Positions 29,775 to 32,270 of a stretch of 64,000 nt of DNA are shown here, piece by piece. Position 1 is the first letter of the stretch; every line of letters begins with the position of its first letter. This DNA comes from Kitasatospora sp. NA04385 (GTDB taxonomy: Bacteria; Actinomycetota; Actinomycetes; Streptomycetales; Streptomycetaceae): positions 6,015,001-6,079,000 of the forward strand of contig NZ_CP054919.1 in NCBI RefSeq assembly GCF_013364235.1, read 5' to 3'. The translations under genes were made by a program, and so were the position numbers. The notes under the pieces are model-generated. The model searched no databases, had not been told where the DNA came from, and saw nothing but the letters and a program-made list of their open reading frames with translations.

Positions 29775-31075
29775 TGCGTAGCAGTGGCAACGGTGGCAAC
29801 GGCAGGAACAGCGGCGGCCAGGGCCGGGGTGGGCAGGGCGGCCGAGGCGGCCAGCAGGGCGGGGGCCGGGGCGGATCGTCGTCCTACGGCGGCGGTGGCG
29901 GCCAGCAGGGCGGCCGCGGCGGGCAGTCCTCGCGCGGCGGCTCCGGCTCGTACGGCGGCGGCTCGGGCTCGGGCTCGGGCTCCTCGTACGGCGGCGGGCG
30001 CGGCGGCTCGGGCTCGGGCTCCTCGTACGGCGGCGGCTCGGGCCGCGGCGGGGCGGGCTCCGGCTCCGGCGCGGGCTCGTACGGCCGGGGCGGCGAGCGG
30101 CGCGAGGAGCGCCGGCAGCCGCGTCCGGAGGAGCGCAGGTACGACCGCCCCGAGTACGGCGGCGGCCCGAACGCGACGCCCGGGCGCGGGGCGTACGACT
30201 CCCGCAAGCCCGGGGCGGCGCCCCGGCCGCGCCGGGAGGGGCAGGGCGCGCCCGGCGACCCGCGGCGCCAGCCGCAGCGCTCCCGGGAGCTCCAGGGCCG
30301 GATCGAGGACCGGGTGCTGGCCCGGCACGAGGGCCCCGACAAGGAGGTCGGCGAGGACGGCGAGCGCCTGCAGAAGGTGCTCGCGCGGGCCGGCATGGGC
30401 AGCCGCCGGGCCTGCGAGGAGCTGATCGCGCAGGGCCGGGTCGACGTCAACGGCCAGACCGTGCTGGAGCAGGGCCGCCGGGTCGACCCGGTGAAGGACG
30501 AGATCAAGGTGGACGGCCTGACCGTCGCCACCCAGTCCTACCTGTTCTTCGCGCTCAACAAGCCGGCCGGCGTGGTCTCCACCATGGAGGACCCCGAGGG
30601 CCGGCAGTGCCTGGGCGACTACGTGACCAACCGGGAGACCCGGCTGTTCCACGTCGGCCGCCTGGACACCGAGACCGAGGGCCTCATCCTGCTCACCAAC
30701 CACGGCGAGCTGGCCCACCGCCTCACCCACCCCAAGTACGGCGTCACCAAGACCTACCTGGCCGCGATCCAGGGCCCGTTGCCGCGCGACCTCGGCAAGA
30801 CCCTGGCCAAGGGCGTCGAGCTGGAGGACGGCTGGGCCCGCGCCGACAGCTTCAAGGTGGTCTCCAACCTCGGCAAGAACTACCTGGTCGAGGTGACCCT
30901 GCACGAGGGCCGCAAGCACATCGTGCGCCGCCTGCTGGCCGAGGTCGGCTTCCCGGTCGAGAAGCTGGTGCGCACCGCGTTCGGCCCGATCTCGCTGGGC
31001 GACCAGAAGTCCGGCTGGCTGCGCCGCCTGACCAACCCCGAGGTCGGCACCCTGATGCGCGAGGTCGGCCTGTAG
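29774..31075 (+). CDS. RsuA/RluB-family 23S rRNA pseudouridine synthase with long Gly/Arg/Ser-rich N-terminus
   Basis: 433 residues. The ATG at 29774 overlaps the scpB stop. Residues 1-190 are low complexity (GGQQGG, SSYGGG, GSGSGSS and RGG units). An S4 domain follows (RLQKVLARAGMGSRRACEEL), and then the catalytic domain with HVGRLDTETEGLILLTNHGE carrying the catalytic aspartate and LHEGRKHIVRRLLAEVGFPV. The enzyme isomerises a uridine in 23S rRNA. The N-terminal extension is roughly as long as the enzyme proper and resembles the RGG region of the TPR protein at 2568-4856. It is the last gene of the parA-scpAB run, followed by a terminator. Confidence 0.93.
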   Translation: MRSSGNGGNGRNSGGQGRGGQGGRGGQQGGGRGGSSSYGGGGGQQGGRGGQSSRGGSGSYGGGSGSGSGSSYGGGRGGSGSGSSYGGGSGRGGAGSGSGAGSYGRGGERREERRQPRPEERRYDRPEYGGGPNATPGRGAYDSRKPGAAPRPRREGQGAPGDPRRQPQRSRELQGRIEDRVLARHEGPDKEVGEDGERLQKVLARAGMGSRRACEELIAQGRVDVNGQTVLEQGRRVDPVKDEIKVDGLTVATQSYLFFALNKPAGVVSTMEDPEGRQCLGDYVTNRETRLFHVGRLDTETEGLILLTNHGELAHRLTHPKYGVTKTYLAAIQGPLPRDLGKTLAKGVELEDGWARADSFKVVSNLGKNYLVEVTLHEGRKHIVRRLLAEVGFPVEKLVRTAFGPISLGDQKSGWLRRLTNPEVGTLMREVGL

Positions 31076-31083
31076 CGGCCGAC

Positions 31084-31127
31084 CACCGGAGCCCGCCCGC
31101 CGTGACCACGGCGGGCGGGCTCCGGTG
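31084..31127 (+). terminator. terminator after the pseudouridine synthase gene
   Basis: A perfect inverted repeat of about 21 bases (CACCGGAGCCCGCCCGCCG...) with a 2-3 base loop, 9 bases after the stop codon. Confidence 0.9.
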
Positions 31128-31197
31128 CGTGTGCGGACGGACGCGGCGGGCCCTTGACATGTGAGGCGCACCGCACGCCCTTGCTATCGTTCCGCCC

Positions 31198-31252
31198 GGT
31201 GGCAGAAGATTGCCACCGAAGTTCGCCCCGACGCGTGGCGGAAGTGCGCCAC
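31198..31252 (+). promoter_or_regulatory. two tandem inverted repeats, candidate autoregulatory operator
   Basis: GGTGGCA-GAAGAT-TGCCACC at 31198-31217 and GTGGCG-GAAGTG-CGCCAC at 31235-31252. Both are perfect inverted repeats with a 6-base spacer that itself begins GAAG, and their centres are 36 bp apart. They lie 41-95 bases before the start codon of the TrmB/LuxR-type regulator. A TTGACA at 31154-31159 is upstream without a well spaced -10. Confidence 0.65.
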
Positions 31253-31292
31253 CGCGTCAGGCCACAGGGCGGCGGGGGAAGGAACCACCACC

Positions 31293-32270
31293 ATGCTGGA
31301 CGCATTCACCGTGCTGGGCCTCGGCCGCCCCGACGGCCAGGTGTACGCCGCGCTGGTCGTCGCGCCGCAGTCCACCGCCGAGGAGCTGGCCGAGCACTGC
31401 GGCCTGACCCTGGAACAGTGCCGCGAGGCCCTGGACCGGCTCGCCGAGCAGGGCATGGCCACCCGCGCCCCGGTCGACCGCGAGCGCTACCTGTCGGTCG
31501 CCCCCGACGTCGCCATCGGCACCCTGATCGGCCACCGCGAGGCCGAACTGCGCTCCGCCCGCGCCGAGATGCACCGGCTGATGGACGCCTTCCGGGAGGC
31601 CTCCCGGTACACCGACCCGGCGCACTCGGTGGAGGTGCTCACCGGCGGCGAGGCGATCGCCCAGCGGCTGGAGCACCTGATCGAGTCCAGCCAGTACCAG
31701 ATCCGCGGCTTCGACTGCCCGCCGTACGTGCAGGACCCGACGGTGGAGCAGCCCCGGCAGCGGGCCAAGCTCAAGTCGGGGGTGCGGATCCGCACCGTCT
31801 TCGACAAGGAGGCGATCGCCTGGCCCGGACGGCTGGAGCAGGAGATCCTCACCGGCGTCGAGGACGGCGAGGAGGCCCGGGTCCGCCCGGTGCTGCCGAT
31901 GAAGATGATGATGGCCGACGACAAGATGGCGATCATCCCGATCAGCGTCGGCGACAGCGTGCTGGACGCCGCCTACGTGATCCACCCCTCCGCGCTGCTG
32001 CAGGCCCTGGACGCGCTGTTCGAGGCCGAGTGGGAGCGGGCCGTGCCGCTGCAGACCGTGCTCGGCGACGGCGAGGGCCCCGGCCCGGAGGCCGACCACC
32101 TCAAGCTGCTCGGCCTGCTCGCGGCCGGCCTCACCGACGAGTCGATCGCCCGCTCGCTGGGCTGGAGCGCCCGCACCACCCAGCGCCGCCTGCAGGGCCT
32201 GATGCGCGAACTCGGCGCCACCACCCGCTTCCAGGCCGGCATGGCGGCCCGCGAGCGCGGCTGGCTCTGA
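31293..32270 (+). CDS. TrmB/LuxR-type helix-turn-helix transcriptional regulator
   Basis: 325 residues. The ATG at 31293 follows GGGGGAAGG by 10 bases. The N-terminal winged helix (LGRPDGQVYAALVVAPQSTA with ELAEHCGLTLEQCREALDRL) is TrmB/MarR-like. A PLD-like or sensor-like central part includes SSQYQIRGFDCPPYVQDPTV. The C-terminal LuxR-type HTH is LLAAGLTDESIARSLGWSAR followed by RRLQGLMRELGATTRFQAG. The architecture is common in streptomycetes; the targets are mostly unknown. Two identical-style inverted repeats just upstream suggest autoregulation. Confidence 0.9.
   Translation: MLDAFTVLGLGRPDGQVYAALVVAPQSTAEELAEHCGLTLEQCREALDRLAEQGMATRAPVDRERYLSVAPDVAIGTLIGHREAELRSARAEMHRLMDAFREASRYTDPAHSVEVLTGGEAIAQRLEHLIESSQYQIRGFDCPPYVQDPTVEQPRQRAKLKSGVRIRTVFDKEAIAWPGRLEQEILTGVEDGEEARVRPVLPMKMMMADDKMAIIPISVGDSVLDAAYVIHPSALLQALDALFEAEWERAVPLQTVLGDGEGPGPEADHLKLLGLLAAGLTDESIARSLGWSARTTQRRLQGLMRELGATTRFQAGMAARERGWL

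Follow-up and report, generated by a model that had tools for sequence, protein, structure and literature searches.

A conserved tandem inverted repeat at the putative promoter of a TrmB/LuxR-type regulator gene in Kitasatospora, with an 18-bp period in relatives from other genera

Tandem-operator autorepressors that cover the -10 element of their own promoter form a general regulatory class. Many regulators of the NarL/LuxR type, on the other hand, are activators, and activator sites normally lie further upstream. Archaeal TrmBL2 (structures 5BOX, 5BPD, 5BPI and 5BQT) is built from a winged helix, a long helix and a phospholipase-D-like domain; it is reported to be a tetramer on DNA in the crystal and to coat DNA cooperatively as a stiff filament (PMC4877046). 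For DosR, the base-contacting residues named in a review are Lys179, Lys182 and Asn183 (PMC4082495).

The locus described here lies in a window of 64,000 nucleotides from Kitasatospora sp. NA04385 and shares features with each of these systems. Its regulator has the three parts of TrmBL2 in common, but adds a C-terminal LuxR-type helix-turn-helix and conserved, specific dyads at its own promoter; it resembles NarL and DosR in the C-terminal part, whereas the partner domain is TrmB-like. As in the tandem-operator autorepressors, one dyad sits on the proposed -10, a second lies just downstream, and the target would be the regulator's own gene. The differences are the 18-bp period, a middle unit that has apparently decayed in one genus alongside fuller arrays in others, and a repressing role that is presumed here. 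We regard this as a new operator of a familiar kind for an apparently uncharacterised family: no characterised member was found in the literature searched, a search whose coverage excluded most subscription papers, and the main text of a census of LuxR proteins in Actinobacteria, in the sections available, makes no mention of TrmB (PMC3466318). The features are as follows.

31181..31186, forward strand: putative -35 element TTGCTA (TTGTCA in most orthologues)
31199-31216: dyad 1, GTGGCAGAAGATTGCCAC, a perfect inverted repeat read from the window sequence
31200..31215, forward strand: operator 1, TGGC-N8-GCCA over the proposed -10, its 8 half-site positions invariant in 69/69 orthologues
31205..31210, forward strand: putative -10 hexamer GAAGAT, inside dyad 1 and 18 bp after the -35 element
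31218..31233, forward strand: register of the putative decayed middle operator, 18 bp after operator 1, assigned from orthologue matches and from middle dyads in other genera
31235-31252: dyad 2, GTGGCGGAAGTGCGCCAC, a perfect inverted repeat read from the window sequence
31236..31251, forward strand: operator 3 (the second perfect dyad, site 2), TGGCG-N6-CGCCA, 10 positions invariant in 69/69 orthologues
31274..31283, forward strand: purine-rich stretch resembling a ribosome-binding site, GGGGGAAGGA, read from the sequence
31293..32270, forward strand: regulator gene (325 aa, ATG at 31293) with a TrmB-type winged helix, a long helix, a phospholipase-D-like domain and a C-terminal NarL/LuxR-type helix-turn-helix

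The initial annotation called the product a TrmB/LuxR-type regulator, and this label holds broadly. Pfam TrmB (PF01978) matches residues 7-71 (1.8e-8, 34.5 bits against a cut-off of 25.6), but GerE (PF00196) stays below its threshold (18.0 bits against 23.5). A family profile aligns with TrmBL2 over residues 6-246 (5.5e-17) and, around residues 251-315, with the DNA-binding domains of DosR (2.7e-9) and NarL (1.8e-8), so that the C-terminal domain looks like a divergent GerE/LuxR relative. The AlphaFold model (mean pLDDT 85.5, pTM 0.59), based on alignment A1 with L006, L014, L025 and L032 left out, shows a winged helix, a 34-residue helix (71-104), a mixed domain and a four-helix C-terminal domain. 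Its best Foldseek match is again TrmBL2 (1.6e-13), with TM-scores of only 0.36-0.38 over the query. A phospholipase-D-like domain after the long helix is indicated by the profile match, the model and Foldseek matches to TrmBL2 and to phospholipase-D folds, the global TM-scores for TrmBL2 being low. No receiver or autoinducer domain appears among the regulator's domain and profile matches. The product is best read as a fusion in which the body resembles TrmBL2 and the DNA-binding domain is of the NarL/LuxR type.

The dyads themselves are as first described, two perfect inverted repeats of equal spacing that start 36 bp apart, at the coordinates originally given. They were said to lie immediately upstream of the start codon; upstream they are, but about 41 bases separate the end of the second core (31251) from the ATG. 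A lone GTGGCR-N6-YGCCAC dyad is not above chance in the source genome, with 15 sites in 8.4 Mb versus 16 for the reversed control pattern, and this count is what speaks for chance similarity in a GC-rich genome. For the pair the figures differ: the chance of any two of 15 random sites falling within 36 bp of each other in a genome of this size is about 0.0009, and there is a single occurrence of the exact 36-bp TGGC-N8-GCCA tandem. The statement that chance is unlikely is sound for the pair. With both copies perfect in every Kitasatospora orthologue, as detailed below, conservation already refutes chance as an explanation, and we give it a negligible weight.

A search of 70 genomes assigned to Kitasatospora by most of their named contigs (some are filed as Streptomyces or Saccharothrix) found an orthologue in 69 of them, at 77-100% identity, and distant matches only in one (G044). 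Upstream DNA was compared for all 69 with up to two mismatches permitted per site. Both dyads are perfect TGGC-N8-GCCA in 69/69, spaced at 36 bp in 55 and at 37 bp in 14. A comparison of orthologue upstream regions had been named at the outset as a point on which the proposal could fail, and the outcome favours it: the dyads are kept in all 69 orthologues, and in other genera many relatives have arrays of a similar kind upstream. Genome-wide, the exact 36-bp tandem occurs at 60 places in 55 of the 70 genomes, compared to 6 for the reversed control. All but five of these places (55/60) are at the orthologue; the exceptions are one in G001 and four that fall within short repeats of G034. Once orthologues at least 90% identical were dropped, 36 of the 55 spaced at 36 bp remained, and in this non-redundant set flanks and spacers are far more variable than half-sites. 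The 36-bp set was chosen by exact pattern, which all 69 orthologues passed, so that none was lost.

This variability changes the motif. The GTGGCR/YGCCAC description captures the dyad, but its outermost G/C and the R/Y pair of site 1 vary among orthologues. The site 2 spacer is GGACTG in 21 orthologues, GAAGTG in 13 and something else in 35. The GAAG proposed as a shared spacer is present in both sites of only 11/69 orthologues, and was rejected as an operator component. Its presence in both window spacers is probably in part a coincidence, because the spacer of site 1 doubles as the proposed -10 hexamer. On sequence grounds the motif becomes a TGGC-N8-GCCA unit with a period of 18 bp, in the form TGGCG-N6-CGCCA at site 2.

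The spacer of site 1, GAAGAT, is most likely the -10 hexamer of the regulator's promoter. The register reads xAxxxT in 69/69 orthologues (GAGGAT 30, GAAGAT 24, CAGGAT 7, CAAGAT 4, CACGAT 2, GAAAAT 1, GATCAT 1), and the -35 register reads TTGTCA in 55, TTGCTA in 10 including the window, TTGCCA in 2 and TTGAAA in 1, with one out of register. The proposed -10 matches TATAAT at 3/6 positions only, and a consensus promoter scanner detected no promoter at the locus. A pattern that joins the -35 element, the spacing, the dyad and the two constant letters of the -10 (A and T) has one exact match in the source genome; eight further matches, all at two mismatches, compare with 26 for the control. As a search for a regulon in the source genome this was negative, yielding no second promoter with the promoter/dyad combination and single dyads at background. 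Purine-rich stretches comparable to that of the window precede the orthologue starts (by eye).

Operator 1 thus lies on an xAxxxT hexamer 18 bp past TTGTCA or a variant of it, which is the position of a repressor. The same geometry bears on the idea that the product binds the dyads yet activates its own gene in positive feedback. Activation is usual for many NarL/LuxR-type regulators, but here the proposed -10 falls within site 1 and is followed downstream by site 2, not the more distal placement usual for activators, and we consider positive feedback very unlikely.

A further reading would have the repeats act as RNA, forming two tandem leader hairpins with related loops that are bound by a protein or tune translation. 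The window leader does fold strongly (-52.7 kcal/mol, z -3.2, no shuffle equal), and both six-base loops start with GAAG in the window. The core pairs, however, are invariant in the 69 orthologues, the loop of site 2 varies in sequence, and if the -10 is right, site 1 is mostly untranscribed. Among 16 inner and outer neighbouring pairs in the 36 non-redundant orthologues, only two isolated outer ones were somewhat above shuffles (their values were equalled or exceeded in 18 and 13 of 500). Leader hairpins were rejected for lack of consistent covariation or compensatory change; a DNA site fits better, and the RNA reading seems to us extremely improbable. Rfam gave seven matches, all under their gathering scores and none covering the dyads.

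The spacing of 36 bp becomes easier to interpret when relatives are included. A family search of 200 genomes gave a match at 1e-60 in 89, of which 25 are outside the genus, and upstream DNA was compared at 33 places outside it (L172 gave no match). Two perfect dyads exactly 18 bp apart occur at 12 of these places and one or more exact dyads at another six; the remaining 15 lack an exact dyad. Relatives with the 18-bp pair are 41-48% identical to the window's protein, and in many of them, judged by eye, a hexamer similar to CAAGAT stands one period ahead of the pair. In the protein comparison, L248, L249, L247 and L246 are repeats of L173, L175, L181 and L142. Upstream of the Streptacidiphilus jeojiense orthologue (57%), an exact dyad at 0 is followed by dyads at +18 and +36 that have one mismatch apiece. 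Three Nonomuraea and one Sphaerisporangium carry a series of three GGC-N8-GCC units at intervals of 18-19 bp, the last being a perfect TGGC-N8-GCCA.

Within Kitasatospora the +18 register retains a trace of such a unit. At least 6/8 positions of TGRC-N8-GYCR are present there in 18 of the 36 non-redundant orthologues, compared to 14 at +10, which overlaps site 1, and 0 to 5 at every remaining offset between +8 and +28; in the window itself the middle register has 4/8. Given the relatives' 18-bp pairs and this residual match, 36 bp looks like two 18-bp periods whose middle unit has decayed. One period is 1.7 helical turns (at 10.5 bp), so adjacent dimers would not share one DNA face, which counts against the proposed array. 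As a separate observation, the TTGTCA -35 of most orthologues contains a TGTC half-site that precedes operator 1 by exactly 18 bp and is in register with the array.

Independently of protein similarity, the 200 family genomes were scanned blind for pairs of TGGC-N8-GCCA dyads at an 18-bp offset. There were 23 such places, in 23 genomes, and the reversed control gave 15. At 15 of the 23 a regulator-family gene follows directly, 14 in one genus (g7) and one in another (g3), and three of these (L192, L194, L197) were absent from the matches of the protein search. The other eight have no family member within 1.5 kb, a number within the control yield of 15. Together with the 69 orthologues, these places amount to conserved sites at the regulator's own promoter, as in an autoregulatory operator. 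Two syntenic orthologues at about 70% identity depart from this: L132 (Streptacidiphilus sp. ASG 303) and L133 (Peterkaempfera griseoplana) keep the recognition helix and rluB without the dyads. In a phylum-wide protein search, a match at 1e-55 was found in 4/396 genomes, the source genome included.

L132 and L133, which retain the protein but not the sites, are what favours the proposal that the dyads belong to another regulator, e.g., a global or developmental repressor acting from outside. Against it stand the 15 blind tandem places before family members in two genera and the uniqueness of the tandem and promoter combination in the genome, which would be odd for a global regulator. The helix comparison described next points the same way, and we judge an outside regulator improbable.

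The helix comparison covered 65 distinct proteins, with identical ones collapsed, those under 250 aa dropped and the Kitasatospora orthologues counted as one row. Exact TGGC dyads precede 22/29 proteins with a C-terminal RT[TVAF]QRR helix versus 8/36 others, kinship being ignored in both counts; in a control stretch of 430 bases further upstream the numbers are 0/29 and 3/36. Without the three proteins found by pattern (L192, L194, L197), the first fraction is 19/26. Among QRR-helix relatives, L177 and L182 have no dyads, and L178, L181 and L235 have one-mismatch dyads only. The eight non-QRR proteins with dyads are L222-L225 (RTMTRR), L227, L232, L244 and L245. In L222, L223, L224 and L225, another Kitasatospora paralogue group, we observed a single TGGC-CACAA(G/C)TC-GCCA dyad a few tens of bases before the start. 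The six compared paralogues of the source genome (L035-L040) have no TGGC dyad upstream.

By eye, the half-sites are of the TGAC type in two RTVQRH proteins (L179, L238) and of the TGTC type in four RTVHRH proteins (L180, L239-L241); the link is loose, because two further RTVQRH proteins (L242, L243) carry mixed TGTC-N8-GCCA sites. The N-terminal recognition helix differs widely among proteins that have TGGC dyads in common (by eye). The association of the QRR helix with the dyads, together with this variation, points to the C-terminal domain as the reader, a correlation in sequence only. Counted along the aligned 3C3W chain, the DosR contacts named above correspond to R294, Q297 and R298 of the regulator. 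The apparent link between half-site and recognition helix is a possible start to a recognition code.

We propose, with a probability of roughly 0.75, that the regulator represses its own gene, its product limiting expression through the dyads on their 18-bp period. The protein encoded downstream would bind as one dimer per TGGC-N8-GCCA unit, most likely making its DNA contacts through the C-terminal LuxR-type helix-turn-helix. On the 18-bp period, operator 1 would lie on the -10, the degenerate middle unit would follow, and operator 3 would fall in the early transcribed region. Occupancy, probably cooperative, would shut out RNA polymerase, and release might come from a ligand of the phospholipase-D-like domain or from a drop in protein level.

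A more elaborate form of this arrangement, in our estimate unlikely, would make use of two unlike DNA-binding domains per subunit. The LuxR-type domain would read the 18-bp dyads and the TrmBL2-like winged helix would hold the intervening DNA, such that the array seeds a short cooperative coat over the promoter. A coat that still covers the decayed middle site would account for the retention of 36-37 bp despite the freer sequence between.

The proposed operator offers a binding motif that can be tested, together with its period and the domain likely to read it, for a regulator family with many members in Kitasatospora. Each of the 70 genomes has 7 to 24 family matches with an E value of 0.001 or lower, and the source genome has 20; many of these matches are distant or partial.

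The dyads travel with the regulator and not with one neighbouring gene, as judged from sequence, because the upstream neighbour differs between genera. The gene rluB is upstream in 69/69 Kitasatospora loci and also in L132 and L133. At 27 other loci, representing 24 distinct places, no rluB was found in the sequence retrieved. In S. jeojiense the upstream neighbour is a divergent 936-aa protein with no Pfam match, and no homologue of this protein was found at 1e-5 in G000, G001, G015 or G044. The gene after the S. jeojiense regulator is presumably DUF952-like, as in the window. Nine neighbours of relatives were scanned, and five match Peptidase_S8 (L136, L138, L175 and L181, with L178 just below the cut-off); of the remaining four, L173 shows only weak similarity to a fervidolysin prodomain, and the others contain different domains or no domain at all. 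The neighbour in L178 is codirectional with the regulator. The same sites may govern secreted proteases too, since some relatives adjoin secreted-looking proteins with a subtilase domain.

Several minor observations concern the neighbouring genes. In L136, L138, L175 and L181, all from other genera, the regulator is divergent from a large, secreted-looking Peptidase_S8 protein, and in L136 and L138 the dyads are within the short intergenic stretch between the two genes. In the window, a strong inverted repeat lies just past rluB (31085-31126). It matches Rfam P37 below threshold (41.2 bits for a cut-off of 50), with a weaker match on the opposite strand, and is probably just a hairpin terminator. 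The rluB frame itself has a long Gly/Ser/Arg-rich, low-complexity start (about 29780-30250) ahead of its conserved domain.
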